From a virus, in IMG/VR virus record IMGVR_UViG_3300020443_000001, positions 1 through 46,619 of that record: a DNA stretch of 46,619 nt. One strand, 5' to 3'. This document shows, piece after piece, positions 11,642 to 43,800 of this stretch (its first letter is position 1; the number at the start of each line of letters is the position of its first letter). The notes under the pieces are model-generated. The model made no database searches. It saw nothing but the letters and a program-made list of their open reading frames with translations, and was not told the DNA's origin. The translations under genes were made by a program, and so were the position numbers.

Positions 11642-11664
11642 GAGGGGGCTTCGCCGCCCCCGAT
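11642..11664 (+). terminator. GC-rich hairpin after the 10886 gene
   Basis: GGGGGC (11644-11649) pairs with GCCCCC (11656-11661) around a TTCGCC loop, starting 15 bases after the stop codon. No U-tract follows, so it may attenuate or stabilise the message. Confidence 0.5.
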
Positions 11665-11698
11665 CCCGTGCGACTTTGCACCGAACAAGGAGACAAAC

Positions 11699-11905
11699 AT
11701 GAACATCCAGCGCGTGACAATCGCCCATCCAGACGACCCAGAGCGGACACTAGCATTTCACACGACATTGCTGTCCACGCACCGCGCCATCAAGAAGGCG
11801 ATGGAGAAGAAGGGGTACCTCGTGATCGACACAAATGATGAGATAGCCGACATCAGCAGCGCCAAGGAAGCGCTAGACATCGCCGCCACGATCTTGCCAC
11901 TCTAA
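11699..11905 (+). CDS. small protein of unknown function
   Basis: A 68-residue protein with AAGGAGACAAAC before the ATG. It has an N-terminal strand (NIQRVTIAHPDDPERTLAFHT), an amphipathic helix (HRAIKKAMEKKGYLVI) and a C-terminal helix (SAKEALDIAATILPL), consistent with a compact alpha/beta fold. It is in the early small-gene block and is followed after 14 bases by another short gene with its own AGGAG site. No family is recognised. Confidence 0.65.
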   Translation: MNIQRVTIAHPDDPERTLAFHTTLLSTHRAIKKAMEKKGYLVIDTNDEIADISSAKEALDIAATILPL

Positions 11906-11919
11906 CAGGAGAATTTCCC

Positions 11920-12096
11920 ATGACAGACAAACCCACCAACCTGCAGCGCCTCAACACGCTACGCAACACCCTGATCAAGGAGGTGAAGGGCTTCCGCGAC
12001 ATGCCGACGTTTGACTACAAGTGGCCTTGCTACCAGCGCGCCTTGGGGATGCTTGAGGGAACGGAACTCTGCATCGCGGCTATTGACTGGGATTGA
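11920..12096 (+). CDS. 58-residue protein of unknown function
   Basis: A short gene with a good ribosome site (ACAGGAGAATTTCCC then ATG); the same leader string is repeated before the gene at 12411. The product is a helical, mildly basic protein with two Cys and several Trp/Tyr (LQRLNTLRNTLIKEVKGFRDMP, then YKWPCYQRALGMLEGTELC). The -35 of promoter P3 lies inside its last codons. Codon choice resembles the neighbours, which supports a real gene. Confidence 0.65.
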   Translation: MTDKPTNLQRLNTLRNTLIKEVKGFRDMPTFDYKWPCYQRALGMLEGTELCIAAIDWD

Positions 12097-12112
12097 GTTC
12101 CCGTGTTAAGAT
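12083..12112 (+). promoter_or_regulatory. early promoter P3
   Basis: TTGACT (12083-12088), 18-base spacer, TAAGAT (12107-12112) preceded by TGT, followed by the leader AAATCAGGAGAAAACCAATG. It overlaps the end of the 11920 gene. Confidence 0.65.
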
Positions 12113-12140
12113 GGTGGTACATCAAATCAGGAGAAAACCA

Positions 12141-12350
12141 ATGATTCGTTCCCGCCTTCTTTCCGCCCGCCGTGTTGTCGGCCTCTATATCCTCTGTTCC
12201 CGCATTTGGGTGGTTGCGCCCCGCTGTGGTCGCCCTTCCGTCGGGCTTCGCGCTGGCCGTCCCCTCCGCTTCGGGTATTGGGGCGTCTATTCCGACCTTG
12301 GCCCTCTTGGCCGCGCCCTCGTGCGTTTGGGTTTCTGGCTTTCTCGCTAG
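12141..12350 (+). CDS. Arg/Trp-rich 69-residue peptide, unknown function
   Basis: The ATG at 12141 has AGGAG and stands directly behind promoter P3, which has no other gene to serve before the next ribosome site. The product is strongly cationic with many Arg spaced among Leu, Val and aromatic residues (IRSRLLSARRVVGLYILC, then FGYWGVYSDLGPLGRALVRL). It could insert in membranes or bind nucleic acid. Codon use, with many TCC, CTT and CGC codons, differs from the neighbours, which are rich in GAC/GAA/AAG codons. That composition makes it possible that the transcript, not the peptide, is the product. Confidence 0.45.
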   Translation: MIRSRLLSARRVVGLYILCSRIWVVAPRCGRPSVGLRAGRPLRFGYWGVYSDLGPLGRALVRLGFWLSR

Positions 12351-15869: not shown

Positions 15870-16192
15870 GCGCACCAAACCAGTTCACAAACCCGACGCC
15901 TGATTGCGTCTTCGCAGCGTACATGGTCAAGGGGTCCCACAACGCCACGCTGATAAAACTCCACGCAACGCACAAACAAAACCCCACGATGTGCCTATAC
16001 CACGGCGAGTTGACGCAAGTGTGGATGCGGCACCTGAACAAGCGCTGGCGACTAACGGTGCGGGCCATCATGTTCTATCTGGAACACGGGCGCTCTGCGC
16101 GGTTTGCGAAGCCAACGTGCGGACAGGTCGAGTGCACAAACCCACTGCACCAAAAAGAAATCGGTAATTCGAACAAAACGGGGCAAGAATGA
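15866..16192 (+). CDS. degenerate HNH-like zinc-binding protein (paralog of 14906)
   Basis: A 108-residue protein sharing the NQFTNPTP start with the 14906 gene and the C-terminal C-x4-C-x-N-P-x-H element (CGQVECTNPLHQ). The preceding helix (VRAIMFYLEHGRSARFAKPT) again lacks the D-H catalytic pair of active HNH enzymes. Its ATG overlaps the previous stop and its stop overlaps the PrimPol-helicase start, placing it in the replication operon. It is likely a metal-binding accessory protein, though its role is not known. Confidence 0.65.
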   Translation: MSAPNQFTNPTPDCVFAAYMVKGSHNATLIKLHATHKQNPTMCLYHGELTQVWMRHLNKRWRLTVRAIMFYLEHGRSARFAKPTCGQVECTNPLHQKEIGNSNKTGQE

Positions 16193-18576
16193 CAACTGAC
16201 AATCAAAAGGGCAACGTATCGGACTTCCATCGCGACGTCTCGATAATGTTCCTCAAGAACACGACGGGATACGCTGTACGGACGCCAAAGGGGCAGAAAG
16301 ACCCTGGAACCATTCAGTGGGACCCCAAGACCAACAACAAAGAAAAGTCCGACCAGACCATCACCATCCTTGAACAGACCACGGACAACCTAGGCATCCA
16401 CCTGTTTGGTTCGCTAGTGGACGTTGACATCGACACGGACAATCCCTTGATGATCGCCGCGCTCGATCGATTTTTGCCGCACACCGCGCACGTTTGGGGC
16501 CGTCCCTCGCGAAAACGTACCCACCGCCTTTACGAACTGGCTGGCCTCACGTCCAATTTCGACCCATCTGCGTGGAAGTTCCTAGAGCGGATCAAGGCGA
16601 GGAAAGACCTGAGCGTTGAGGTTCGGGGTGGCGAGTTGCACAGTGCGCGTTACTCACTACTTCCAGGTTCTGTTCACCCCAGCGGCGAAAACTACGAGTG
16701 GGAAAGTCCTAAGTCGGCCCGCGTGTCGGTAAGCAGCGTCAGCGAAGCGCGACTAATGCAGGGTCTCCGGTTCGCTTGCGTCGCGGCTCTGATCGCCGCC
16801 TATTGGCAAGAGGGCGTGAGGAACGATCTATGCAAGGCCTTTGCAGGGTTTATGCACCGCGCCGCTGCATACAGTGAAGAACTGAACTCCGACCTGATGT
16901 TTACCCGCGAGGACGCGTGGGAACTAATGAAGGGCGTGATGGAACTGGCGGATGATGACGAAGCCGACGCTGCTATGCGCAAGAAGACGTTCGACCAGAC
17001 GTGGGATAAAGGCGACGAAGGCGCACCCATCGTGGGCGCAACGCGGATCATGGAAATCACGGACGACGAAGAAATCGTTGGTCTGCTGTACTCCCTTCTA
17101 GCCAACACGCCTGACCTCCAAGCTTTGGACGAGATATTTGAGCAGTACGCGGTTGTGCGGAACACCACCAACCTGATCGACCTCAAGCTAGGGCGCAAGG
17201 GTAACTACGTGATGAACCGTGACTCTTTCGTCTTCACTCTGGCGGGTAAATACCTAAATACCCCTAAGGGACGGGTGCCAGTATCCGCAGTTTTCCTCAA
17301 CTCGCCGCGACGAACTGTCGTGGATCGCATGGCGATTAACCCACAGCGCGAAAAAATCTACGAGAACAAAGACGGAATGAAGGTCGCCAACACGTGGACT
17401 GGCTGGGAAATCCTGCCCTGCGACGAAGACACGCACGAGTCCGAGGTCGAGTGGTTCACGGACTACCTGCTGCGGGTGGTTTGCAACAGCGATCAGAAAC
17501 TGTACAATTGGACGCTGCAATGGATTGCCGACATCTTCCAGAACCCTAACGAAAAAGCGGGCACGGCACTAGTTCTAGTAGGGAAGCCTGGATCGGGGAA
17601 ATCACTACTCATGGAGAACATTCTCCGCCCCATCATCGGAACGGCGCATTCCACCAAGGTCGGTACACTCGACAAGCTGACGTCCAAATTTAACTCGCAT
17701 ATGGCTGGGCAGTTGCTCATTCAGGGCGAGGAAGTTATGAACACCAACCGTCGGGCCGACGCCGATATGCTCAAGGACGCGATCACGTCGAAGCTGCGAA
17801 TGATCGAAATGAAGGGTCGCGACGCCTTTGAAATGGAAGACGTGGCGCGGTACACGTTCACATCCAACCACATCGACAAGTCTGTTAACGTGGAGGCGGG
17901 CGATCGACGGTACACAATCTCTCACGTGTCTGAGCAGTTTGCTTTCGATGGTGGGCGCAACAAAGAGGCGCGGGACGAGTATTTTGGTAAGCTGTTTAAG
18001 CACCTGCTAGACCGGAATGACCACGGCGAAGAAGTGCCTAACGAGGTGGAACTGGCCAAGCTGCACCGTTACCTCCTGAAAGTGCCCATCGATAAGTCCC
18101 TGATCATGGTGTCTTGTGAGACGTCGGCCAAACGGGTCACGCAGCAGAACTCGTCGAAGGGCATGGACGCATGGTTGCTTTCTATGGTGGATCGTATTAA
18201 TCCATTTGAGGACATGCGCCTATCAGACAAAGGCGAGGTACACTCGTTCGTTGTGAAGGGGAAGACCCTGAAAACCACAGATTCGTGGCCTGAGTATGTT
18301 CAGTATAGTCGCCTTGAAGTGTCCATGCGCCTCTTCACCGCCCGCGACTACGGTGAGGCCAAATCTGCTCAACAAATCGCCAAGTATTTTAAGGATCACG
18401 GCTTGGTTGGCTCGACTGAGGATCGCCAGACACGAGCTTACGGTGAGCGGGTGCGGGTGCGCCCATTCCCGACACGCGAGAGCCTCTCTTCTTACCTGCG
18501 CTACCGTGGTTACGAGGTCATGGACGTCAAAGAGGATATCTCCGAAGACGACAACGACGAAGGGCCTAAGTTTTGA
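16189..18576 (+). CDS. PrimPol-type primase fused to SF3/D5-like helicase
   Basis: A 795-residue replication protein. The N-terminal domain (about residues 1-190) has archaeo-eukaryotic primase features: a D-x-D motif in LVDVDIDTDNP near residues 77-86, GRPSRKRTHRLYEL, and ARYSLLPGSVHPSGENYEW, the strand-loop typical of Prim-Pol domains. The C-terminal half holds an SF3-type ATPase: Walker A GKPGSGKS near residue 463, Walker B-like LLIQGEEVMN, and a sensor TFTSNH. It would unwind and prime the phage DNA. It is read from an ATG overlapping the upstream stop. In the Z-phage S-2L a PrimPol is the replicative enzyme, so its coexistence here with a family A polymerase is notable. Confidence 0.85.
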   Translation: MTTDNQKGNVSDFHRDVSIMFLKNTTGYAVRTPKGQKDPGTIQWDPKTNNKEKSDQTITILEQTTDNLGIHLFGSLVDVDIDTDNPLMIAALDRFLPHTAHVWGRPSRKRTHRLYELAGLTSNFDPSAWKFLERIKARKDLSVEVRGGELHSARYSLLPGSVHPSGENYEWESPKSARVSVSSVSEARLMQGLRFACVAALIAAYWQEGVRNDLCKAFAGFMHRAAAYSEELNSDLMFTREDAWELMKGVMELADDDEADAAMRKKTFDQTWDKGDEGAPIVGATRIMEITDDEEIVGLLYSLLANTPDLQALDEIFEQYAVVRNTTNLIDLKLGRKGNYVMNRDSFVFTLAGKYLNTPKGRVPVSAVFLNSPRRTVVDRMAINPQREKIYENKDGMKVANTWTGWEILPCDEDTHESEVEWFTDYLLRVVCNSDQKLYNWTLQWIADIFQNPNEKAGTALVLVGKPGSGKSLLMENILRPIIGTAHSTKVGTLDKLTSKFNSHMAGQLLIQGEEVMNTNRRADADMLKDAITSKLRMIEMKGRDAFEMEDVARYTFTSNHIDKSVNVEAGDRRYTISHVSEQFAFDGGRNKEARDEYFGKLFKHLLDRNDHGEEVPNEVELAKLHRYLLKVPIDKSLIMVSCETSAKRVTQQNSSKGMDAWLLSMVDRINPFEDMRLSDKGEVHSFVVKGKTLKTTDSWPEYVQYSRLEVSMRLFTARDYGEAKSAQQIAKYFKDHGLVGSTEDRQTRAYGERVRVRPFPTRESLSSYLRYRGYEVMDVKEDISEDDNDEGPKF

Positions 18577-26197: not shown

Positions 26198-26413
26198 ATG
26201 CGCCGAGTTGAATACGTGGGGCCACTGGAGCCATTGAGGGGCAAAAGGGCCATAGCCCAAGACGGCCCTTTTAGAGTTCAGTTTGATGGGTATGAAGACG
26301 AATGGCGATCACCTGCCGAGCACCGACTTCGCCACCCTGAAACAGGCGCGTATCTGGGCCTGAACTGGCACGTGATGCCCGAAGGACACTTCAAGGCCTT
26401 AGAGGATAACTAA
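26198..26413 (+). CDS. small SH3/KOW-like protein of unknown function
   Basis: A 71-residue protein of strand pattern VEYVGPLEPLRGKRAIAQDGPFRVQFDGYEDEWRSPAEHRL, like a small SH3-like barrel with a conserved G-x-R/K-x-x-A-x-x-x-x-P-x-x-V-x-F/D arrangement. Its stop (TAA) overlaps the ATG of the DNA polymerase by one base, and similar small barrel proteins often accompany phage polymerases. No function is established. Confidence 0.55.
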   Translation: MRRVEYVGPLEPLRGKRAIAQDGPFRVQFDGYEDEWRSPAEHRLRHPETGAYLGLNWHVMPEGHFKALEDN

Positions 26414-28287
26414 TGGATCATACTGAAATCGACGTGGCGGAAAACGCCGAACGAGCGCTGCGAATGGTGCGCGAGGCCAAGGAGGTCACGTACGACACCG
26501 AGACGACTGGTCTGGACTGGCGGGTACACTCCCCCGTGGGGTACGTGGTGGGCGCGCCGTCCCGTGAGCTATATATATCCCCCGCAGATGTGGTGTATGT
26601 ACCCGTACGCCACGGGGGCGGCGGGAATCTACTAGGCGGGCGTCCCATGACCAGCGCCACCGAGGGATTCCAGCAGCACGAGTTTGAGGTGCAACTGGCG
26701 CGGGCTTTCGATTACCGGAACCAGCAGCCTCAGTTGGGCCGCACTGTTGGTCACCACATGAAATTTGACGTCCACATGTCCCGCAATGCAGGGATTAACA
26801 TGGGCCGCAAACTGGCCTGTTCTCAAAATATGGCCGCGATGGCCGACGAATATGCCCGCAAGTACGGGCTGGAGGTGACAGCCGACAGGCTTGGAGTTAC
26901 GGCCAAGAAAGCCCAACCAATGTACGACCACCTAGCGGCTACTTTCGGCGGAGTGGCAACACACAAAATCATGTCGCGTTTCTGGGAACTGAGCGGGACT
27001 GATCCGGTGGCGTATGACTATGCCACGGGCGACGGCGTTTCCACTATGGAGGTTTATTGGAAGCTAGACCAACAGCTGCGCGAAGAGAATATGGAAGTCG
27101 TGCGCGACCTCGAAAACGACCTGATCTGGACTGTGTTTCGGATGGAGCGCCGTGGCATCAAGGTTGACATGGACGAGATTGAGGCGCTGCGGTTCGCTAC
27201 CGAGGGCAAGATTTCCCGACTAATGGGGGAACTGCCCGTGGGCTTTAACCCTAGGTCACCGCTGCAAATGCGGGCCTTGATGGAAGAACACGGCCACACG
27301 GACTGGCCCCTAACTGACAAAGGGTCGCCTTCGTTCACCGAACGCTTCTTGAAGACCAACGAAATTGGCCGGACTGTCATTGAAATCCGACAGATGGGCA
27401 ACTTGATCAACTCGTTCATCAACCCGTTGGCCGAGCGCCACATCCACAAGGGCCGAGTTCACGCTACGTTGAACCAGCTTAAGAGCGACGACAAGGGCAC
27501 AATCTCTGGCCGTTTCTCGTGTTCTGACCCCAACCTGCAGCAGGTCCCTAAGCGCAATAAGGAACTGGCTAAGCCCTTCCGTCGCCTTTTCGTTGTGGAC
27601 GGCCCTGAATGGGTGTTCTGGGAGCGCGACTACTCCCAATGTGAGCCGCGCCTTTTCGCCCACTACGCTCAAGACGAGAACTTGCTCAAGGGTTACAACG
27701 CTACGCCCTTCCGCGACGCTCACCAAGTTGTTGCTGACCTGCTGGACGTAGAACGCGACCCTACGGCGAAGCGAATGAACATGGGCATCTTTACGGGGAT
27801 GCAACCTAAGTCGTTTGCGGGCCACATGGGTTGGAGCGTCGAAAAAGCCACAGTAGCGCACCGGAAGTGGTTCAGTGAGTTCCCCGCCATTCGGGAGTTC
27901 CAAGATCGAGCGAAAGCGCGGCTAAAGAACAAAGGGTTCGTGTACACCCTTCTCGGTCGCCGTTGCCGATTAGAACACCCTCGCTTCGCGTACCGTGGCA
28001 CGTCCAAGGTCATTCAGGGGGGTAACGCCGACATCGTTAAGTACAAGCTGTTGCAGGCAGACCGACTGTGCGAAGACAACGGGGATATCGTGCAGGTCAA
28101 TATGACGGTACACGATTCCTTCAATGGCCAGTACCAGAACACGCCGGAAGCCAAGGCACTGTTCGACAGAATGGTGGCCGAAATGGAGGATGTGGTGTCC
28201 GAGCCGTTTAATCTGTCGGTCCCCTTCTTGCTGGAGGGCACTGAAGGCAAGAACTGGTCCGAGGCAACCTACGGGGTGGATGAATAA
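26413..28287 (+). CDS. dpoZ: family A DNA polymerase with 3'-5' exonuclease (DpoZ type)
   Basis: A 624-residue polymerase. The exonuclease domain has D-x-E (YDTETTGL, residues 27-33), HHMKFDVH as Exo II and YDYATGDGVST as Exo III. The polymerase domain has motif A DYSQCEPR (Asp 406, Glu retained), motif B RDPTAKRMNMGIFTG (residues 448-462) and motif C VHDS (residues 566-569). Motif B differs from T7/Klenow: the position of Klenow F762 is Met and of Y766 is Thr. Motif C has Ser where Glu is standard. DpoZ enzymes are known to work with 2-aminoadenine and are neighbours of purZ in Z-siphophages. It copies the genome with dZTP in place of dATP. Confidence 0.85.
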   Translation: MDHTEIDVAENAERALRMVREAKEVTYDTETTGLDWRVHSPVGYVVGAPSRELYISPADVVYVPVRHGGGGNLLGGRPMTSATEGFQQHEFEVQLARAFDYRNQQPQLGRTVGHHMKFDVHMSRNAGINMGRKLACSQNMAAMADEYARKYGLEVTADRLGVTAKKAQPMYDHLAATFGGVATHKIMSRFWELSGTDPVAYDYATGDGVSTMEVYWKLDQQLREENMEVVRDLENDLIWTVFRMERRGIKVDMDEIEALRFATEGKISRLMGELPVGFNPRSPLQMRALMEEHGHTDWPLTDKGSPSFTERFLKTNEIGRTVIEIRQMGNLINSFINPLAERHIHKGRVHATLNQLKSDDKGTISGRFSCSDPNLQQVPKRNKELAKPFRRLFVVDGPEWVFWERDYSQCEPRLFAHYAQDENLLKGYNATPFRDAHQVVADLLDVERDPTAKRMNMGIFTGMQPKSFAGHMGWSVEKATVAHRKWFSEFPAIREFQDRAKARLKNKGFVYTLLGRRCRLEHPRFAYRGTSKVIQGGNADIVKYKLLQADRLCEDNGDIVQVNMTVHDSFNGQYQNTPEAKALFDRMVAEMEDVVSEPFNLSVPFLLEGTEGKNWSEATYGVDE

Positions 28288-28521
28288 ATGGCCACTTTCG
28301 AGGGACGCATTCAAATGACGGGGGGCGCAGCGCTGCTGTTTGAGGGCCACTATTGGCACGGCAGCGTTTGGTTCCCTCTGTCGCAAGTCCGCATCGAGGA
28401 CGACAACCTAGACACAGGCACCGTGGTTATACACATCGCGGATTGGTTGTGTAAAAAGCGCGGTCTGTTGGAATTCACGCAGTACCAAAGCGACGAACTG
28501 GAGGCGATGAACGGGATATGA
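28288..28521 (+). CDS. small protein of unknown function
   Basis: A 77-residue beta-rich protein that starts immediately after the polymerase stop. The order GGAALLFEGHYWHGSVWFPLSQVRIE, then TGTVVIHIADWLCKKRGL resembles small OB- or SH3-like proteins seen next to replication genes in related phages. The tryptophan-rich barrel could bind nucleic acid. Its stop overlaps the following nuclease start by four bases. No activity is known to me. Confidence 0.6.
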   Translation: MATFEGRIQMTGGAALLFEGHYWHGSVWFPLSQVRIEDDNLDTGTVVIHIADWLCKKRGLLEFTQYQSDELEAMNGI

Positions 28522-28949
28522 AGAAGAGCAAGCAAAAGGAACTATTGTTCCAAAAACACATCATCGACAGCTACGTGAATTGCGGGGGATACGCACACAA
28601 ATGGGCCACGGAGTTGTCCGTGGGCAACCCCGACCTTGTGGCGTCACTGCCCAATTTTGGGTGTCACCTTGTGGAGGTGAAGCACAGACCCGACTGGACG
28701 GAGCGCAAGTACAAGAACCCGCTCAACGACAAGCAGGTTCAGCAAGCCCGCCGTTACATCGAAGCGGGTGGCATCGCCCTATCAATGGTGGTGGTAGGGA
28801 AAGGGTCGCGGGCGATCGATAGCAAGCTGTACATTTTCAGCTCCTTGGAAGAGCAGATTGATCTTTCGCTGGCGATGCACGTGGATTATGTCCCGTCCAA
28901 AAAGTTTAACGTAGACGCTCTTATGCGCAACAGAGGATTCCGAGTATGA
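28518..28949 (+). CDS. VRR-NUC type nuclease
   Basis: A 143-residue nuclease of the PD-(D/E)xK superfamily. The active site is VGNPDLVASLP with Asp, then the strand HLVEVKH with Glu and Lys, and KNPLNDKQVQQARRYIEAGG with the conserved Gln. This is the layout of VRR-NUC proteins, which cut branched or flap DNA and serve as junction resolvases in phages. It starts with an ATGA overlap and lies between polymerase and purZ, so it likely resolves replication or packaging intermediates. Confidence 0.75.
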   Translation: MKKSKQKELLFQKHIIDSYVNCGGYAHKWATELSVGNPDLVASLPNFGCHLVEVKHRPDWTERKYKNPLNDKQVQQARRYIEAGGIALSMVVVGKGSRAIDSKLYIFSSLEEQIDLSLAMHVDYVPSKKFNVDALMRNRGFRV

Positions 28950-29272
28950 CCAGAAACGTAGATAATATCGTTGAAGAGCGCGGGTCGCGCTACGGCGACT
29001 TCGCAGATCAAGCCCTGCTGATCGAGCGGCTCAACGGGCTTCAACACGCTGAAATGGTGGGCAACCCTCAGTACGATGAACTGGACGAGAAAGAACAGGC
29101 CATCGTCTCGTACACCCTCACGATGGTGAACATGAAAATAGCCCGCATTGTTCAAGGCGACCCGACGTACGACGACAATTGGGTTGATATCGAGGGTTAC
29201 GTTAAGCGCGCTCGCGAGAAACTCGAAGAACACGCAGAAATGAGAAACAACAAACTAGGAGCAGCATCGTGA
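28946..29272 (+). CDS. DUF6378-like helical protein
   Basis: A 108-residue all-helical protein. Its RGSRYGDFADQA start, the KEQAIVSYTLTMVNMKIARIVQGDPTYDDNWVDIEGY core with K-x-A-R-I and D-x-W-x-D-I-x-G-Y, follow the DUF6378 pattern common in phages near nucleotide genes and loosely related to MazG-type proteins. It overlaps the upstream stop by four bases and its stop overlaps the purZ GTG. A role in nucleotide pools is likely by context, but no reaction is established. Confidence 0.65.
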   Translation: MTRNVDNIVEERGSRYGDFADQALLIERLNGLQHAEMVGNPQYDELDEKEQAIVSYTLTMVNMKIARIVQGDPTYDDNWVDIEGYVKRAREKLEEHAEMRNNKLGAAS

Positions 29273-30372
29273 GCAAATTGGTACCAGTAGAACAAGGCGT
29301 CGCAAAGGCCCTACTTGACACGTCTTTTATGAAAAAAGCGGGCATGTACTCAATCGTGGACGGCCAATTCGGTTCCACGGGCAAAGGCTTGCTGGCAGCG
29401 GTGATGGGTGAGGTTTTCAGCCGCCATAACGCGCTGGACTGCGTGACCAGCAACGCGGGGCCAAACAGTGGTCACACCTTTTACTACCGTGACGAAAAAA
29501 TCGTCCTGCGTCAGTTGCCGTCAGCAGCAGTCTGGAAGGCATGCGCGGGACTTCAAACCTACGTACACCTGAACGCGGGGTCCATTATCATTCCCAATCT
29601 CCTCATAGAAGAAATCCGGATGTATGGGGGGCCAAACCTAATGGTGACCATCGACCCAATGGCGGCAGTTGTAACCAGTGACGCAGTGGCTCAGGAAAAA
29701 GAACTGGTCGGTGCAGTCGGTTCCACCGGTAAAGGCACGGGGGCAGCTTTGGCTAACAAGATCATGCGCAAAGAAGGTGCGGTGATGATGGACGTGTTTT
29801 ACGACTACGAATGGCCCGAAAACACGTGGCTCAAGGCCGTCAATCTGGGTGACGGGATCGACCAAGACGAAGCCCGTATCCTCATGGAAGTATCACAAGG
29901 GTTCAGTCTGAGCCTCAACGCGTCGGGGTTTTACCCTTACTGTACGTCACGCGATTGCACCGTTGCGGCGGCTATGTCGGATGCGGGTGTACACCCTTCA
30001 CTGCATCGCGGGTGCGCCATGGTGGTGCGGACATTCCCGATCCGTGTGGCCGGAAACTCTGGCAGTGGCTACCCCGACCAACACGAACTCTCGTGGGAAC
30101 AAGTGGGTCAAACTCCCGAACTGACCACCGTGACGCAAAAGGAGCGTCGCATTTTCAGTTGGTCCAAGATGCAATACGTGGAGGCTTTGAAAGCCAACCG
30201 CCCCGAAATCATCATGTCCAATTTCATGAATTACCTTCCTGAGGGCGTGGACCATTACGCTTGGGTACGCAAGAACATCGTGCACCCCTACGAAGCGATT
30301 TTCGGCAAGCCCCCCGAATTGGTTCTGTTGGGCTACGGCCCCGAAAACGCAGATGTGGAGGTGTACCAATGA
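29269..30372 (+). CDS. purZ: PurZ, N6-succino-2-amino-2'-deoxyadenylate synthase
   Basis: A 367-residue member of the PurA superfamily, read from GTG 29269 (GTGA overlap). PurA's QWGDEGKGK is QFGSTGKG here (residues 33-40): the catalytic Asp is Ser 36, the known mark of PurZ, which uses dGMP in place of IMP. The catalytic His is kept in NAGPNSGHT (His 69). GSTGKGTGAALANKIMRKEG corresponds to PurA's GTTGRGIGPAY loop. PurZ joins Asp to dGMP with ATP, and host PurB then yields dZMP. It is shorter than PurA, as PurZ proteins are. The neighbours dpoZ, mazZ and datZ candidates make the assignment strong. Confidence 0.93.
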   Translation: MSKLVPVEQGVAKALLDTSFMKKAGMYSIVDGQFGSTGKGLLAAVMGEVFSRHNALDCVTSNAGPNSGHTFYYRDEKIVLRQLPSAAVWKACAGLQTYVHLNAGSIIIPNLLIEEIRMYGGPNLMVTIDPMAAVVTSDAVAQEKELVGAVGSTGKGTGAALANKIMRKEGAVMMDVFYDYEWPENTWLKAVNLGDGIDQDEARILMEVSQGFSLSLNASGFYPYCTSRDCTVAAAMSDAGVHPSLHRGCAMVVRTFPIRVAGNSGSGYPDQHELSWEQVGQTPELTTVTQKERRIFSWSKMQYVEALKANRPEIIMSNFMNYLPEGVDHYAWVRKNIVHPYEAIFGKPPELVLLGYGPENADVEVYQ

Positions 30373-30704
30373 ACCTGAGCATCAACATTCCCGACGAAAT
30401 GGCCCCCTACGCTGACGACATCGAGTTTTTCGTCACGCTGATGGTGCGGAAACTGCACACCAACCGCCACAAGGGCACAGGTAAGCAACTGAACCTCAAG
30501 TCCATGGCGCACTTTGCACGGGGCGAACTGGCCGAAGTAGAACAGGCTCTCGCAGAACAGGGCCAATTCGAGGTCGCGGTGGAATGCGCAGACGTAGCGA
30601 ACTTTGCGTTCCTAATGGCTCGTTCTGCCCTGAACATGACACGGGAAGAATTTGTACAGTCTAAGTCTGTAAAGGCTCTTCCTGATGTGAAAGGGGGTAA
30701 GTGA
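30369..30704 (+). CDS. mazZ: MazG-like nucleotide pyrophosphohydrolase (MazZ candidate)
   Basis: A 111-residue all-helical protein. It has the MazG metal-binding pattern: E53-x-x-E56 (GELAEVEQAL) and E72-x-x-D75 (VECADVANF), after an RHKGTGKQLNL segment as in small MazG-like phosphohydrolases. In Z-phages MazZ hydrolyses dGTP to dGMP, the substrate of PurZ. The gene overlaps purZ by four bases, which supports linked function. The substrate is inferred from context. Confidence 0.8.
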   Translation: MNLSINIPDEMAPYADDIEFFVTLMVRKLHTNRHKGTGKQLNLKSMAHFARGELAEVEQALAEQGQFEVAVECADVANFAFLMARSALNMTREEFVQSKSVKALPDVKGGK

Positions 30705-31360
30705 TGGCTATCGAGGACATGGTTAAGCGTCACACCAATTTTGACGACACTAAAGATTTCATCCCAACACCCCCTTGGGCGACTCGAGTCCTGTATGAAG
30801 AGGTGGTGCCTCACATGAAGCGCAACGCTTCTAACTTCTCCGTGTGGGACCCCGCAATGGGCGCGGGCCACATGGTAAAAGTCTTTGCGGAATACGGACA
30901 TCCGGACGTACGGGGATCGGATTTGTACTCGCACCCCCGCGTTCCCGACTTGCCAAAGGACGTTCGCAGCTGGACTGAGGACTTTGTAAAGTGCCCGCCC
31001 ACGGACAAAATCGATATAATCGTGACCAACCCCCCATACAAGCACCTTGGGGCGTTCATTAAGCGTTCGCTGGGACAGGCTCAATTCGGCGTTGGGATGT
31101 TGGTGCGGGTTCAGGCCCTCGAAAGCGAAAAACGGTATAACGAAATCTTCCGTGACATGCCGCCCACCCAAATTGCATTTTTTGCCAACCGCATACCTTT
31201 CAAAACGGGCGAGGTCAAACAGAAAGCGCCTAAGATGTACTTCCACGTGTGGCTATGGTGGCAAAAGCTCCGCACGGGCGAGCTTTACCCTCCGCAACCT
31301 CCGATGTGGATTCCGTTCGACGCGCAACAGAAGTATGAGAAGGAGAGCGATTATGAATGA
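30704..31360 (+). CDS. N6-adenine methyltransferase-like protein
   Basis: A 218-residue protein (ATG 30704, or GTG 30701 one codon earlier). It has the SAM-binding motif I DPAMGAGH (about residues 48-55) and the amino-methyltransferase motif IV NPPY (residues 109-112), as in adenine-N6 or cytosine-N4 methyltransferases. The downstream part is short, with no evident target recognition domain. It lies between mazZ and datZ candidates, with overlaps on both sides. It could act on Z, on residual adenine, on a nucleotide or on RNA, or be a non-methylating relative. The enzyme class is likely; the substrate is open. Confidence 0.65.
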   Translation: MAIEDMVKRHTNFDDTKDFIPTPPWATRVLYEEVVPHMKRNASNFSVWDPAMGAGHMVKVFAEYGHPDVRGSDLYSHPRVPDLPKDVRSWTEDFVKCPPTDKIDIIVTNPPYKHLGAFIKRSLGQAQFGVGMLVRVQALESEKRYNEIFRDMPPTQIAFFANRIPFKTGEVKQKAPKMYFHVWLWWQKLRTGELYPPQPPMWIPFDAQQKYEKESDYE

Positions 31361-31895
31361 TTTGCACGAAATTCACAGACAGCTTCGTTGGTCACGTCGG
31401 TTGTCGCATGTGCCTCGTTGGGCAGTAGCGCCAATACTACAACAACAGAGTGTTGCAGAGCACTGTTTCCACTCCGCCCGTATAGCGCAGTGGCTCATGG
31501 GTATGTGCGCCACTGAGCACCAGAAACACTACCCTGTAGAAACTGAGCTGGCTATCATTAAATTAGCGCTGGACCACGACGATTCCGAAGCAGCCGATGG
31601 CGACACTCCAAGCCCGTCTAAGCCTAAAAAGGACTATAGCACTTGGAGTGAGGTGGAAGTTTTCGTTAAGGTGTGCGACCTTCTGGAAGCGGCCCTGCAT
31701 TTGCGCGAAGAACAGCTATTCGGCAACCGAAGAGTGCAAGAGCTAGTTGAAGACATCGACGAGCGGCTAGAAGAGGTGTGGCCTTTTTTCAAGTACGTGG
31801 GGGAACCCATGAGGTTTAAATCTTGGGCCTTGAAGGAACGGCTCATAGAAGTTGCTTTTTTGTCGCACCCCGCATTGGAGGCCAAGCATGACTAA
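31353..31895 (+). CDS. datZ: HD-domain phosphohydrolase (DatZ candidate)
   Basis: A 180-residue HD protein starting within the end of the methyltransferase-like gene, with AGGAGAG before the ATG. The metal ligands are visible: His 37 (VAEHCFHSA), His 75-Asp 76 (LDHDDSEA) and Asp 109 (KVCDLLEA). The N-terminal RRLSHVPRW with Arg 22-Trp 23 corresponds to the substrate pocket of YfbR/DatZ enzymes. DatZ removes triphosphate from dATP and so keeps adenine out of DNA. The closest alternative is a 5'-nucleotidase like YfbR; the context favours DatZ. Confidence 0.8.
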   Translation: MNDLHEIHRQLRWSRRLSHVPRWAVAPILQQQSVAEHCFHSARIAQWLMGMCATEHQKHYPVETELAIIKLALDHDDSEAADGDTPSPSKPKKDYSTWSEVEVFVKVCDLLEAALHLREEQLFGNRRVQELVEDIDERLEEVWPFFKYVGEPMRFKSWALKERLIEVAFLSHPALEAKHD

Positions 31896-33432
31896 AGCAC
31901 CCGAAGTAGAATGGCTCATTGGCGGTGACCCTCGCGAAGTGCAACTTGAGGCCCTGCGTCGCTCGTTTTACGGGTATGCCCTGAAAGACCATAAAGACGA
32001 CGAGGGAAACATGCGCGTCCTGCGCGAGGGGTTTATACCTACGCGGGGATGGGGCCACTACATGGAAATGCGGCTGGGCAAGACGCCCACGGCACTGAAT
32101 GAGTTCATGTTATTTCGTCAAGGGTACGATTTCGAACGCATGATCGTTTTGGGTCCCAACCAATACAAGGAAGATTGGGCGCTGGAGAACGAAAAGTACG
32201 GAGTGGATGTTCCCATGATCCCGTATTACCAGCAAAAACTGTCTAAGATGGAGAAGGCTTTTAAGGACGCCAAGGGCGCTCTGAGTTTTTCAGTCAACTA
32301 TGAAGCGTTGCAATACGACAAAACGCTCGACTTCTTAGAAAGCATTATGACGAAACGCACCCTTTTGGTTGCCGACGAGTCTATTTTCATCAAGAACCGC
32401 GAATCCCTCTTCACTAAGGGTGCTATGCAAATCCGAGACAAAGTGGCAGTTACCCGTGTCGCGTCGGGTCTGCCTATGACGCAAGGCCCCACCGATTTCT
32501 TCTCGCAAGCCAAATTCATTGGCATGTACGACGGCCTTAGCTATTACGCATTCCGTGGGAAGTATTGCGTGATGGGCGGGTTTAAGGGGCGTAAGGTCAC
32601 GGGGTCCAAGGACGAAGATAAGTTGAATGCTGACATCAACAGCAAGGCTTTCGTGGCCAAGCGCCGTGATTGGGGCACTCAATCCAAGGCCGAACACTAC
32701 CAAATGCGTTTGGATATGGCCCCCGAACAGAAAAAACACTACGACGAAATGAACCAAGAACTCATTACAATCGTGGAGACCGAGAAGGGTGAGGAAGAAG
32801 CTATCATTGCTGAGCAGGTGATGGGCAAGCTGATGAAGATGCAGCAGATTTCGTCAGGTTTCGTATATACCGAAGCGGGCGAAGCTGTGGAAATCATGGA
32901 CCCTAAGAAGACGCCAAAAATGAAAGCGCTTCTAATGTTGCTGGAGAACGAAATCAAGGGTAAGGTGGTTATTCCTTACCATTACGCCCAATCCGGCGAG
33001 TTGCTGGAGGAGGTTCTGGCCAAGTATAACCCAGCGTTCATCCTAAGCACAGGTCGCATGAAGAAGAAGGGGCTAGACTACGTATCCGAGAAGAAGAAAT
33101 TTAACAACGACCCGTCTTGTCGCGTGGTGATTGGTAACTTGGTCACCATGAAATACGGCCACGACCTAACTGGGTCGCCCGAAGATCGTTGCGCCACGAT
33201 GTTCTTCTTTGAGAACAACTTCTCACTCGATAACCGTACCCAAGTCGAGGCGCGGAACACCACGGCTTTTCAGGATTGGGCCAACCTCTACCTTGATCCC
33301 TACTGCAGCCAGACCGAATTGAACGCGATTTCTGCGCTGGTGGAGAAGCGCAACTTGGTCGAAGGGGTTCTAGGGCCGTACAGGCTCGATCGACGCGACG
33401 GCGTTGAGTGGACCGGAAGACAACAGTCCTAA
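31888..33432 (+). CDS. SNF2-type DNA helicase/ATPase
   Basis: A 514-residue protein from ATG 31888, eight bases inside the datZ end. It shows superfamily 2 motifs: motif I as GHYMEMRLGKTPTAL (Walker A variant with GKT), motif II as VADESIFIKN near residues 160-169 (D-E-S-x-x-x-K-N, the SNF2 form), motif III as ASGLPMTQGP, and C-terminal motifs around KGKVVIPYHYAQSG and LDNRTQVEAR. Such phage enzymes remodel or unwind DNA in replication. It closes the rightward block, with a bidirectional terminator just after. Confidence 0.85.
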   Translation: MTKAPEVEWLIGGDPREVQLEALRRSFYGYALKDHKDDEGNMRVLREGFIPTRGWGHYMEMRLGKTPTALNEFMLFRQGYDFERMIVLGPNQYKEDWALENEKYGVDVPMIPYYQQKLSKMEKAFKDAKGALSFSVNYEALQYDKTLDFLESIMTKRTLLVADESIFIKNRESLFTKGAMQIRDKVAVTRVASGLPMTQGPTDFFSQAKFIGMYDGLSYYAFRGKYCVMGGFKGRKVTGSKDEDKLNADINSKAFVAKRRDWGTQSKAEHYQMRLDMAPEQKKHYDEMNQELITIVETEKGEEEAIIAEQVMGKLMKMQQISSGFVYTEAGEAVEIMDPKKTPKMKALLMLLENEIKGKVVIPYHYAQSGELLEEVLAKYNPAFILSTGRMKKKGLDYVSEKKKFNNDPSCRVVIGNLVTMKYGHDLTGSPEDRCATMFFFENNFSLDNRTQVEARNTTAFQDWANLYLDPYCSQTELNAISALVEKRNLVEGVLGPYRLDRRDGVEWTGRQQS

Positions 33433-37348: not shown

Positions 37349-39940
37349 TTATTTCTCCAAAATCATGCCGTCATGCGCGACGATCTTTGTGGTAATTGGG
37401 GTATCGGTTTGCCCGACGCGAACAAGGCCTGCGAAGTCAGAGCGCCCGTCAGATGTACCCACGTACACAAGGCCCGTTGTCTCGTCGCAGTCCATTGCTC
37501 TCACCACGTCGGAAGTGCCGTTCAAAGTAACCTTGGCGTCAGGGTAAAACACGGCTCGTTCGTCGTAATATATTTTCGCGAGCTGTTCTGTCGTGGGTGC
37601 GGTTGCCCCGATACGCCACAACGCCATGGACATATCATTTGAGGACACGTTATCGCGGCCTATAACAACGGGAGCAGCGTCCGTAGCCGAAATGTCTCCG
37701 TCACTTTCAAGAAGGTGGATTATTTCGCCGTTGAATATATAGAACACTTCTCCGTTTTGGCGCGCTAAACCCACAAGGCACCACGCACCCTTTGCCATTA
37801 TTGTGTCGGGCAATCCTTGCGCCCATTGATGGTTTTTTGTGCTAGTAACCAAGCCCAATTTTAAGCTGTTTACATGAGTTGCGCCCCCCGAAGTAGTTCG
37901 TTCGATATTAAAGCCCACGCCTGAGCTATCTAGGCGCTTCAGGAGGGCTTGAGTTGACCCGCCGGTTGTGTCGCTTCGTACCCACCCCATCGCACAGAAA
38001 TCGCCCGTCCCAAAATCGAGGTCAGGGTTATACGGCTGTTCAAGGTAATTCTCACCACTAAAACCGCTATACCCTATTAGTTCAGCGCCAGCAGCAACGG
38101 GAGCGAGAGAAACCGCGCCGTTAATGATCAGGCCCTTTTTGTTCTTGGAGCGGTCGCGCTCTGCCCGTCTAACAGACATCTTAAAAGTGGCTGAACTACC
38201 GTCTGTGCCCGAGAACACGGTGAGCGTGTCTCTTCCCGTCCCCGTGATGTAAGCCACGTATTTCCCCACACCGACAGAATTGAATATGTTCTCTGAGGAC
38301 ACACTTGAGTTTTGGGCGTGAGACTCGCGAATGGAGATGCCCGCACCTTGGGCACCGGAAAAGGCCGAAACGTCCAAAGTCACGACATAATGCTGACCTT
38401 CTTCGATGATACCATCCTCTGAGGCAACAACAGCGGGCACCGGATCGTTTCCGTCCAGTCGCCAGTACCCATCTGCCAGTGAGGTAAGCGTACCTCTGGC
38501 GAGATAGTTAGAGCCAGCGGGGCCAATGCTCGTGTCGATCAATTCCCCGCCTGTCAGTTGCTCGGCGTCTGTAGACGACAGCCACGCTCCTTTGATGTCG
38601 CCTACCATCCAACCCGTCGCATAGTCGTGGGTGGTGTATGCAACCATACCTTTTTCGGGCTGGACCAAATCACGTGATAGTGTACTCAAGCCACCATAAT
38701 TCCCAATGCGCAGATTGTGCCCATCCTCGGCAATTTTAAGCGGCCAAGCCGTACCAGGAGCGTCCGAGCCTATGGTTTCCAAGTCCCCTGTTTGCGAGAC
38801 ATTTGTGGATTTGTTGCTCTCGTACCATTCAAGCGCAGAACCTTTTGTGTAATGCAGCGGTTGTGAAACGTCAGCAGTCGGGATGTCGAAAATCCGATAG
38901 CCTCTGGAGTCGTCGTAAAGCTGACATGCAATACGACCGTCGCGCAGGAAGAAAACCGACCGTGCGTCGCTGGTGTCAGAATTGAAGATGTCAAAGACTT
39001 CGCCGCTGCTCAGAATAACGCTGACGCCCGCAGTGGTTGCCACTGCGATGGTTGGGATTTGAAGACCTGACGCTGGATCAATAGGTGCGTCTGCTAGGAC
39101 AGTCATGGCAACATCATGGACCTCGTTGCTGCGGAGGCTATTCCCAGATATCGTTGCCCTGCTCAGTAGGGTGTTCCTCTGAGAGAAAGGCCGTGTGTAG
39201 ATAAACCTTCCACCTGTCCAGAAACCCTCCGCTGTTTCCGCTGCGAAATTCAGGACGAGAACAGCATTAGCTGTCGTGCCCACAGCGAGCCAACCGTTTC
39301 GAGATACCACACTAGAAACACTGCCACTCTCAAGAATGTGGTAGGTAGAGCCTGTTGTGCCTCTGTCAAAAACCATCCACATAGGCAGTGCTGGATCGTC
39401 ACCATCAAAGATCGTGACCTTGTTCGCCTCTGCAATCACAACTTTGCGCGTCGGAATATCTCGACGGGTTCCCCGCGTGGCGGTCCCAAGCGTTTCGTTA
39501 TACCAGCTTGTGCGGCGCTGCACCGCAAGCGACGGGTTGGGCGACGTGTCAATGCACCCGTCAACCATTGTGATGTTCTTGGAAAGAGCTGTAGACGCGA
39601 GGTCTTGGTAAACCACGGCACTCGCAACGTCTTGAGCGTGTCGGTACGCCTTGGCCTCTGCCGCCTCCGCAGACTCCTTGTACGATTTGGCCGTGTCACG
39701 ATACCCCAGCGCCTGCAAAGCCGCAGCCACCGCATTATTCATCAGCGGCACGTTATTCTGCACATAGAGCCGGTGACTTTCCACAGAAAGCGCCGTCGTG
39801 TTCATCCATGACCCAAGCTCGTTGGATTTCACCACCCAGTTGGGAAAAGCCGCAAGCAGGGCGTCGGACTTTGCCGAAAAATTGGATGGGTCCTGACGGC
39901 TTGGTGCCGGAGGAAGGGTAGGAATGATAGGCGCAGCCAT
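37349..39940 (-). CDS. tail fibre / receptor-binding protein with LamG-like domain
   Basis: An 863-residue protein. The N-terminus (RQDPSNFSAKSDALLAAFPNWV, then helical AKSYKESAEAAEAKAYRHAQDV) is the virion-attachment part common in tail fibres. Residues about 150-450 look like a beta-propeller-type repeat region. A domain near 620-790 (DFGTGDFCAMGWVRSD, YIFNGEIIHLLESDG) is a concanavalin/LamG-like fold, which binds sugars. The C-terminus returns to propeller-like repeats (LVYVGTSDGRSDFAG). It most likely decides host range. The ATG overlaps the upstream stop by one base. Confidence 0.8.
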   Translation of the reverse strand: MAAPIIPTLPPAPSRQDPSNFSAKSDALLAAFPNWVVKSNELGSWMNTTALSVESHRLYVQNNVPLMNNAVAAALQALGYRDTAKSYKESAEAAEAKAYRHAQDVASAVVYQDLASTALSKNITMVDGCIDTSPNPSLAVQRRTSWYNETLGTATRGTRRDIPTRKVVIAEANKVTIFDGDDPALPMWMVFDRGTTGSTYHILESGSVSSVVSRNGWLAVGTTANAVLVLNFAAETAEGFWTGGRFIYTRPFSQRNTLLSRATISGNSLRSNEVHDVAMTVLADAPIDPASGLQIPTIAVATTAGVSVILSSGEVFDIFNSDTSDARSVFFLRDGRIACQLYDDSRGYRIFDIPTADVSQPLHYTKGSALEWYESNKSTNVSQTGDLETIGSDAPGTAWPLKIAEDGHNLRIGNYGGLSTLSRDLVQPEKGMVAYTTHDYATGWMVGDIKGAWLSSTDAEQLTGGELIDTSIGPAGSNYLARGTLTSLADGYWRLDGNDPVPAVVASEDGIIEEGQHYVVTLDVSAFSGAQGAGISIRESHAQNSSVSSENIFNSVGVGKYVAYITGTGRDTLTVFSGTDGSSATFKMSVRRAERDRSKNKKGLIINGAVSLAPVAAGAELIGYSGFSGENYLEQPYNPDLDFGTGDFCAMGWVRSDTTGGSTQALLKRLDSSGVGFNIERTTSGGATHVNSLKLGLVTSTKNHQWAQGLPDTIMAKGAWCLVGLARQNGEVFYIFNGEIIHLLESDGDISATDAAPVVIGRDNVSSNDMSMALWRIGATAPTTEQLAKIYYDERAVFYPDAKVTLNGTSDVVRAMDCDETTGLVYVGTSDGRSDFAGLVRVGQTDTPITTKIVAHDGMILEK

Positions 39941-40838: not shown

Positions 40839-43800
40839 TTAAACCCTTGTGTCCGGAAGGCCAACGTTGTCCCAAGCGTCAACTCGATCGCTTACACGCT
40901 TGGTGTGCTTAATCACGGCCAAGAGAGCGCGGCGAATTTCTGAGAGACCCTGTTCGAGGTTGGACGTGTCTGTCCCTGCGCTGAGGATGTCTTGCGTCTT
41001 CTTAGCGTTCGATATCTGGCTCGGCCCCGTCTTCTCTAGCTCAGGACCATTCTCACCTACAATGCGGTACCCACCCATGTGGGAACCACCATCCATGAAC
41101 GCGGGAACACCACCTAGGTCGATGATTTCTTGGCGACGGGCTTCAATCGTTTCTGCTAAAGCCCTAAGCTCACCCGCTTGTCCATAGGTCTGGCTGTACA
41201 AACCGCCGTCGCCATAAAACTCGTTTTTGAAGTCACGAGCTTTGCTGGAACTGCCCGAATAACTAATTTGGTTGTACTTGCCCTCGAAAAGACCTTGATC
41301 GTTCACGCCGAAAGAAGCCGTCTGGGACATTTGGACGGGGCCGGATTTGGCATTCAGGTACACGCCGTATTTCTGCGCCAAACCGATGATCGAGCCAGAA
41401 GCTTGATTGACCTGTTCAATCAGCTGGCTTTGTGTACCAACGCTAGACTCAAGAGCCGCTTGCGCCTCGCGAAGAGCAGACTGACGGTTTGCCTCGGCTT
41501 CTGCTGCTGCTAGTTGGGCTTCTTGCGCTGCAACAATGCGACCAACAAGGCTGGATAGCTGGTCAAGACCCGCAACCATACCCGACACGCCCGAAACGTT
41601 GATACCCACGTTCATCCGCGTCAAGAGCGCAGATGTGAGTGTTTCGTTGCCCGCGACTGCGCGTTCAACCAACTCAGTGATGCTTACTGTTTCGCCCTGC
41701 AAGTTTTTAACGTCGCTAAGCTGGTCATTGGTCAGGCTCTGTGTGTTCGTTATGCTACCTGTTTGCCCTGTGATAGCATTACCAAAGACCGCGTTTTGGT
41801 TGGCCAAAGCAGTGATCTGTTGCAGGGTGCCTTGGCTAATCGTGGTCAGCATCCTCGCTGCAGCAACTTCTTCCGCTGTAATCACGCCATCCTTGTTACG
41901 ATCAACCGCGTTGATTACAGCCTCGATCGCCGCGTTGGATGCCTTGCCTGCAAGGGACTCGCGGATTTGTTGAGCAGTCATCTGACCATTGTTATTGATA
42001 GCTGTCTCAAGGGCGAACACCGTGCTTTCGTACGCGCTCACGATCGAAGCGGCTTGAGCCTCTTGTGCCGAAACAACCCCATCCATGTTAGCGTCAAGTG
42101 CGTCAAGCACCTGAGTTGCCAAGTTCAAGGAAGCCGAAAGATATGCAGTGGTAGTCGCTGCAGTTTGCTCGCGCAAAGCCGCAATCTGCTGTAGCGTCGT
42201 CTGGTCCATATTGGACAACAGACGGGACGCCATTAATTCTTCGGCGGACACGACACCATCTTTGTTACGATCAACTGCCCCTACAACGGCGTTAATTGCA
42301 GCATCCGATGCTTTACCCTGTAGTGAGTCGCGGATTTGCTGAACAGTAGTGCGTCCATTCGAGTCCACGGATGCACTTACACCCGCTAGAGCTTCTACGT
42401 AACCACTGAGCAACAGCGCAGCCTGCGCCTCTTGTGACGAAAGCAACCCGTCATTGTTTGCGTCGAGTGCTTCTACAATTTGTGTTGCCATCCCGTAGGA
42501 TGAAGTAAGGTAAGAAGTGGTGGTTGCCGCAGTTTGTTCGCGCAGAGCCGCGATAGCAAGAGCACCCTCGGATGAAAGAGCACCTATGACCTGACCATTG
42601 CCGTCAAGCAACGCTGCAACAGTGGTGCCAGTGTTGTCAATAGCCTTAGCGATTTGTAGCTGTGTACTTGCAACGATCTGATCCTTAAGAGAATTCAGAA
42701 CAGTCACTTGTTCGTTAAGCAACTCCTCGGTCGCATTACCAGTCTCCAGCATGTCGCGCAGTTCTTCAAGCGCAGCAGTCTGCACCTCAAACAACATTGC
42801 TTGGTAGTCAGCACCAAGGCCGAGAGATTCGGCAACCGCCGCGCTCTGACGCAGCTGATTGGCAATAGTGCCCTCGATCCGCAGAAGATCAACACTAGTG
42901 GACGCGAAATCAGCGCTGTCTGTTGCAAGGGACTGGCCCGAAGCGCCAAGGCTACTTAGTGCATCTACGTCGCCTGAAAGAGCAGCAGACAGCTGAGACG
43001 CGTACTTCGCACCCGCCGACGCTAGGTCCGACGCGTCCCGTACGCCACCGATGCCATCTGCAGCACTTCGCAGGCTCTCCGCCAGACGGAAGAACTCTGT
43101 CGCGGACTGGCTGGCCTCAGTCGCCGCTTGGTTCGAGGCAGCAATTTGGTCCGTCAGTGGGTCGAACACGTCGGAAACAGCCTGTGCCACGAGAGCGCCA
43201 AGCTTTTCTGTCAGACTATCGAATGCGGGGAGAACCGTGTCCATTTGTGCGGCAAGGGCCACCAACGCAGTGAACATCTCACGGCCCGCTACAGTTGTGA
43301 GGTCTTGCGCGTCCACCATTGCACGGTATTGTGCGCGAGTTTCGGGCATTGCGTAACCCAATTCACCCATGACTTCGGCAAGTTGCTCAGCAGTTTTGGC
43401 CACACGCTCTTGTTCGCTATACACAGTTTGGTAGTACAGGGACGTCGCAGTGTTGAAAGCCTCCAGACCGCCCGCGAGGTCAGCCAAATCACTGGCCATG
43501 GACGCCCCTTGCAGGGACACTTCCAGCAGTTCGTTACCGAACGTGTCCAGCACAGTGTTGACCAGCGTGATGCTGTTCACGAGACGGGAAAGGGCGTCGT
43601 AGGAACCCTCGCCTTCTTTCTTGAGGGCCTCAAACTCTTCGTTCACGTGAGACACTTTTTGCCCAGCCGAATATAACAGATCAGCGGGGATGCCGAACAG
43701 CTTCTCAAGGCCCGTCTGCACTGCGTATTGGTTGGACTGCACCACTTCTTCAAAGTTGCCAACAATCGCGTCAGCAAACACGTCACCGATACGAGTCATT

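Follow-up and report, generated by a model that had tools for sequence, protein, structure and literature searches.

Phages that carry 2-aminoadenine (Z) in place of adenine are known already, and the described systems closest to the locus considered here are cyanophage S-2L, vibriophage phiVC8 and Ochrobactrum phage vB_OspP_OH (NC_070933). Here, we analyzed an IMG/VR virus record of 46,619 bases (the window, meaning this whole stretch), in which nine genes are packed on the + strand at 26413-33432, most neighbours overlapping by a few bases (Table 1). Their order, from a family A polymerase (PolA) through purZ, mazZ and datZ to a helicase, is that of vB_OspP_OH and of about 100 IMG/VR loci, which were found with alignments; scanning viral contigs with a single PurZ protein gave none, and no near DNA relative of the window was found in the phage collection. 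Only one member of the clade is cultured, vB_OspP_OH, whose 2020 description makes no mention of 2-aminoadenine (PMC7139368), and the uncultivated loci number a hundred or more. What appears to be new is that the polymerase forms a third lineage and that the operon contains a predicted CcrM-type methyltransferase.

Compared with the described systems, the locus has several shared and several distinct features. First, vB_OspP_OH carries in the same arrangement a polymerase, a small open reading frame (ORF), a nuclease, DUF6378, purZ, a MazG-like gene, one ORF, datZ and a helicase, with identities to the window of 43-47% for PurZ and 38-42% for the polymerase. Unlike the window, it has no methyltransferase, a different 90-aa ORF lies there, and the gate residue of its polymerase is Ser rather than Thr. 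Second, PurZ of phiVC8 is 39% identical, with the same adenosine triphosphate (ATP)-type pocket, and phiVC8 also has MazZ-2, DatZ and a family A polymerase, but this polymerase has a Phe gate and insertion 2 where that of the window has Thr and no insertion; in addition, the window has its methyltransferase between mazZ and datZ. Third, S-2L shares the purZ-mazZ-datZ order and the functional residues, but has MazZ-1, no PolA and no palindrome avoidance. No Z genes are annotated in Sinorhizobium phage phiM5, with which vB_OspP_OH was compared in its own paper.

We consider it very probable (about 0.92) that the operon remodels the purine deoxynucleotide pool and that the phage DNA is copied with Z for adenine. 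Judged from characterised relatives, MazZ-2 would convert deoxyguanosine triphosphate (dGTP) to the monophosphate (dGMP), PurZ would join dGMP and aspartate, with ATP, into succino-2-aminodeoxyadenylate, host PurB and nucleotide kinases would complete the Z triphosphate (dZTP), and DatZ would destroy deoxyadenosine triphosphate (dATP). The genome would be copied by the family A polymerase, which belongs to a new lineage among Z-phages, and Z would protect A-containing restriction sites; how selective this polymerase is for Z and how far substitution goes are likewise presumed from those relatives. The direct observations behind this reading are the gene set, its residues, its clade, its gene order and the finding that A-containing palindromes escape avoidance.

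A serine in place of the catalytic Asp of PurA marks PurZ (PMC12884076), and in the window protein Ser36 stands at this place, within QFGSTGKG. The other residues expected of PurZ are also present (Thr153, Arg167, Gln210, YxYCT, Arg254, Val260, the TTVT loop, Asn318/Phe319/Asn321 and Pro358) and agree with those described as substrate residues in S-2L PurZ (PMC8342488); the sole exception among those checked is Ser67 for S-2L Ala50, and vB_OspP_OH likewise has Ser. Asn318, Phe319, Asn321 and Pro358 fit an ATP-type pocket, unlike the PurZ0 type. The best PDB matches were PurZ of phiVC8 (E 2e-55) and of S-2L (E 2e-32), while PurA in the same search reached 9e-22 for a short archaeal-type protein, 2e-11 or worse for full-length bacterial-type proteins and 2e-6 for E. 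coli, and the PHROG '2-aminooxy adenylosuccinate synthetase' was matched at 4e-58. In a 40-row tree, window PurZ and an IMG/VR relative (L023) fell within the ATP-type PurZ clade (Shimodaira-Hasegawa-like approximate likelihood ratio test, SH-aLRT, 96), apart from PurZ0 and from E. coli PurA, which was the only PurA in the tree and stood on a long branch. With that single PurA for comparison, the placement inside the PurA clade that a preliminary description of this DNA had named as counter-evidence did not occur. The sub-clade of the window contains vB_OspP_OH as its only cultured member. On residues, searches and tree, we assign the gene to PurZ of the phage ATP-type clade.

Two observations on other PurZ proteins were also made. 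A divergent PurZ in IMGVR_UViG_3300032893_000058 (about 22.7-23.9 kb) has QWGSEGKG, with Ser kept and Glu as in PurA and PurZ0, together with LTFCDYP, and may bind GTP; this phage also has MazZ-2, DatZ and a Thr-gate polymerase, and its PurZ is a possible intermediate. PurZ relatives also occur in contigs binned to bacterial metagenome-assembled genomes (L132, L133, L134, L136, L139 and three more), among them those of an alphaproteobacterium and of Gottesmanbacteria, and these are probably phage contigs.

The four proteins singled out in the preliminary description, the polymerase, the PurA relative, a MazG-like protein and an HD protein, lie where it had placed them, and its residues were read correctly: in addition to Ser36, ExxE...ExxD in the MazG-like protein and His37, His75-Asp76 and Asp109 in the HD protein. 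A Pfam search with the MazG-like protein gave no match. It aligns with MazZ-2 of vB_OspP_OH (39%), phiVC8 and ZP6, the four acidic residues included, these are largely kept in clade members, and its gene adjoins purZ. The structural model is confident (predicted local distance difference test, pLDDT, 92), and MazG/HisE chains recur among its top PDB matches, but weakly (E about 1, TM 0.4-0.5). With alignment and synteny firm and structural support weak, we assign the protein to MazZ-2. For the HD protein, R22, W23, V25, Q32, A35, H37, H75, D76, E79, G83, P88, K90, K106 and D109 align to R19, W20, I22, Q29, A32, H34, H66, D67, E70, G74, P79, K81, K116 and D119, the functional residues of S-2L DatZ (PMC8065100). 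The only change among the 14 is the conservative replacement of the 2-amino-excluding Ile22 by Val, where other DatZ proteins have I, L or M, and by this alignment the protein is assigned to DatZ. As a separate observation, 36 IMG/VR loci (e.g. L130, L096, L099 and L110) have the helicase nearly directly after mazZ-2 and no recognisable datZ, although it has been stated in print that mazZ is invariably flanked by datZ and purZ.

Support of a different kind came from restriction-site avoidance. Provided that Z shields sites with an A, restriction would be expected to cause avoidance of GC-only palindromes alone. Using maximal-order Markov expectations, GC-only 6-bp palindromes in the window were depleted ten-fold (10 vs 107.6 expected), and those with one A:T pair numbered 275 vs 342 expected; the observed/expected ratios with one, two and three A:T pairs were 0.80, 0.72 and 0.79. 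GC-only non-palindromes were at expectation (1049 vs 1017, ratio 1.03), and each third of the window by itself shows both the depletion of GC-only palindromes and the one-A:T ratio. Median ratios at 0/1/2/3 A:T pairs were 0.36/0.81/0.84/0.87 in the Z-gene IMG/VR loci, 0.17/0.33/0.70/0.95 in T7-like phages, 0.42/0.54/0.81/1.02 in T1-like phages and 0.87/0.71/0.76/0.93 in alphaproteobacterial methyltransferase phages. Only the step between zero and one A:T pair separates Z from control phages, and for loci whose GC-only ratio was under 0.5, the ratio at one A:T pair told 46 Z from 53 non-Z loci apart with an area under the curve of 0.985. The controls were T7-, T1- and N4-like phages and lambda, with control loci checked to be free of PurZ; the methyltransferase set included one locus (L150) that stands outside the final contrast, and, as loci are related, p-values are descriptive. 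Low GC-only counts are not diagnostic by themselves, because lambda alone shows GC-only avoidance. We also rejected a comparison of GC-only with all A-containing palindromes, which splits Z from temperate alphaproteobacterial phages and fails for T7-like phages. The preliminary description had proposed Z-substituted DNA for this phage, and the palindrome pattern supports it independently. To the best of our knowledge from a literature search, no palindrome test on Z-phages has been described, and the present one offers a means for adenine protection to be judged from sequence in uncultivated phages under restriction pressure. In the same counts, CCNGG (17 vs about 205 expected) and CCGG (66 vs 170) are strongly avoided in the window, which suggests host enzymes cutting such sites.

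The polymerase is the part of the gene set for which the earlier label did not hold. PurZ, MazZ-2 and DatZ pass the family tests, but the DpoZ label finds no support in the published diagnostics. Phe459 of phiVC8 replaces a strictly conserved Tyr and is the only characteristic change common to both DpoZ subfamilies (PMC8599892); the window polymerase has Thr461 at this helix-O place, insertion 2 in helix O (phiVC8 A442-P448) is absent, and the Leu455 place of phiVC8-like DpoZ is Met. Of the phiVC8-like features, the Ser after HD in motif C is kept (HDS at 567; 82/89 in the clade). Among 89 polymerases of PurZ loci, the helix-O gate was Thr in 78, and Ser, Tyr and Phe in three each. By these residues, the polymerase is placed outside both published DpoZ types, and we regard it as a third, separate PolA lineage of Z-phages. 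One polymerase taken as non-Z, that of L150, fell inside this clade with Thr, and a search of the full contig then found PurZ and a complete Z gene set; with this presumed exception encoding PurZ, the Thr-gate lineage tracks PurZ. A Thr at a supposedly strictly conserved family A residue tests whether Phe there matters for Z choice.

These polymerase residues bear on the alternative that survives best, namely that Z substitution is partial or local, with the polymerase mixing A and Z and DatZ alone setting the ratio, as in S-2L. Thr461 for Phe and the missing insertion 2 favour it, as does the report that S-2L PrimPol does not tell A from Z and that DatZ does the exclusion (PMC8065100). However, every sampled occurrence of this polymerase lineage is in a PurZ phage, and the tested loci with no recognisable datZ keep the same palindrome pattern. 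We regard partial substitution as rather unlikely. The earlier suggestion of full or largely full substitution goes beyond what sequence can decide. A second alternative is that the A-palindrome relief stems from another adenine modification, such as broad N6-methylation by a phage methyltransferase. Such a gene is present in the operon, but the same pattern appears in tens of Z-gene loci while this methyltransferase family is found only in the window and L023 in the census, and its studied homologue is GANTC-specific, not broad, which makes this explanation very improbable. Finally, it is extremely improbable that the PurA relative boosts the adenine supply as an adenylosuccinate synthetase of the ordinary or a host-derived kind, with the other genes serving general nucleotide salvage. 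The genes were annotated in this way in vB_OspP_OH (PMC7139368), and PF00709 matches the whole family, but Ser for the catalytic Asp, the PurZ-clade placement, the dGMP and ATP pocket residues and the palindrome pattern all speak against it.

Returning to DNA copied with Z, several points weigh against it. The support is sequence-based throughout. Compared with the studied DpoZ enzymes, the polymerase has neither the Phe gate nor insertion 2, which leaves its preference for Z putative. The avoidance evidence is of a statistical kind and comes from related loci; 2/53 controls lie within the Z range, and a different protective modification of adenine would produce this pattern too. S-2L, a true Z-phage, shows no palindrome avoidance at all, and Gordonia phage Ghobes and L150 also show little or none. 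In addition, GANTC is depleted in the window although it contains A.

The gene between mazZ and datZ (METHYLTRANSFERASE; 30701-31360) shares 33% identity (over 97%) with PhiLM21_p027 of Sinorhizobium phage phiLM21, which methylates GANTC like the host CcrM (PMC5537653). Both share NPPY/F and an N-terminal PTxPWATR motif, and the window protein has NPPY and an S-adenosylmethionine (SAM) motif; by this resemblance it is a CcrM-type DNA methyltransferase, with a predicted GANTC-related specificity. Unlike the window, where the gene sits inside the Z-cluster, phiLM21 has no PurZ in the stretch searched, and none of 44 other contigs carrying a methyltransferase of the window type has PurZ. In the census, the mazZ-datZ insertion was found in the window and L023 only (70% identical). 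In L024, the closest long relative, mazZ overlaps datZ directly, and no methyltransferase gene of the window type was found in its 47.6-kb record; L150 has one of the same type beside its PrimPol gene. A literature search found no description of a methyltransferase within a Z-cluster. Separately, Ghobes (a PurZ0 phage; L012) encodes at 11661-12248 a distant homologue, gp58, with NPPYKH and no clear SAM-binding motif.

For E. coli methyltransferases in vitro, Z-containing sites are at least ten times poorer substrates, and 6-methyl-2-aminoadenine confers endonuclease resistance (PMC8342488). N6-methyl-2-aminoadenine is therefore possible in vivo. We tentatively suggest, while holding it doubtful, that the methyltransferase acts on Z-DNA, placing a doubly modified base, N6-methyl-2-aminoadenine, at GZNTC in the virion DNA and restoring a host-like CcrM mark, and that the Thr-gate polymerase is a third, separate solution for copying with Z. 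In that case the phage would put back a mark which host enzymes are expected to add only inefficiently to Z-DNA. A CcrM-type methyltransferase in a Z operon makes natural N6-methyl-2-aminoadenine testable.

The GANTC depletion extends to vB_OspP_OH and other clade members (L002, L024, L028, L003, L007 and L009 listed). We rejected GANTC counts as evidence on the methyltransferase, since the clade avoids GANTC with or without the gene, and the counts therefore indicate a CcrM host only. Together with the kinship to vB_OspP_OH and phiLM21, the depletion suggests that the host is probably a CcrM-bearing alphaproteobacterium. In other Z-phages, GATC is almost absent from phiVC8 (2 of 82) and PMBT28 (1 of 78), and K300, in which the depletion is weaker, carries another annotated DNA methyltransferase; Z-phages still avoid sites of host orphan methyltransferases despite the A in those sites.

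Within the interval first described, three further conserved genes had gone unmentioned: the VRR-NUC-like gene, the DUF6378 gene and the NPPY methyltransferase gene. Most loci of the clade have a counterpart of the nuclease gene (97 of about 109). The slot directly upstream of purZ holds DUF6378 in 80/97 loci and, in five, PF18909 (DUF5664) instead, a dATP/dGTP diphosphohydrolase family whose activity on both nucleotides has been demonstrated (PMC12884076); the two were not found in the same locus among the loci compared. This replacement suggests a nucleotide-pool role for DUF6378, which we consider a candidate nucleotide-pool enzyme; comparisons of fold and profile did not back such a role. 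Its model is all-helical (pLDDT 94.8). A MazG-like identity was rejected for DUF6378, as the confident model had no PDB match and the profile matched neither the MazZ-2 nor the DUF5664 set.

Table 1. Coordinates of the operon and of an upstream replication gene in the window
Feature	Position	Strand	Evidence
Family A DNA polymerase, 624 aa, 3'-5' exo + pol	26413..28287	+	PF00476 1.6e-51; phiVC8 DpoZ 7pbk 1e-44; motif alignment, tree, census
Small conserved ORF, no assigned function	28288..28521	+	phrog_8389 2e-4
Putative nuclease (VRR-NUC-like position in relatives)	28518..28949	+	synteny with vB_OspP_OH putative nuclease
DUF6378 protein	28946..29272	+	PF19905 8.5e-7; overlaps purZ, directly upstream
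PurZ, ATP-type, Ser36, GTG start	29269..30372	+	PDB, PHROG, residues, tree
MazZ-2-like NTP pyrophosphohydrolase, 111 aa, ExxE...ExxD	30369..30704	+	39% to vB_OspP_OH protein; family alignment; model
DNA N6-methyltransferase, predicted (NPPY, DPAMGAG)	30701..31360	+	phrog_799 1e-37; 33% to PhiLM21_p027; start GTG 30701 or ATG 30704
DatZ, HD-domain dATP triphosphohydrolase	31353..31895	+	phrog_7076 (dATP triphosphohydrolase) 5e-13; best PDB match 6zpa DatZ; 14 residues
Superfamily 2 DNA helicase, operon end	31888..33432	+	phrog_62 2e-60; same place in vB_OspP_OH
Primase-polymerase/primase-helicase, upstream, same strand block	16189..18576	+	phrog_1156 9e-30

The ATGA or GTGA overlaps reported earlier are present at 28946, 29269, 30369 and 30701. 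The identities of the polymerase, PurZ and the HD protein agree with Pfam, PHROG and PDB searches, and that of the helicase with PHROG. The primase-polymerase/primase-helicase is conserved with the cluster in 47 relatives, many of these loci being partial. The terminase, portal and head protein genes all lie on the - strand, which also carries two very large ORFs, one at 37349-39940 (863 aa; no match in a PHROG search) and one at 40839-46583 (1914 aa).

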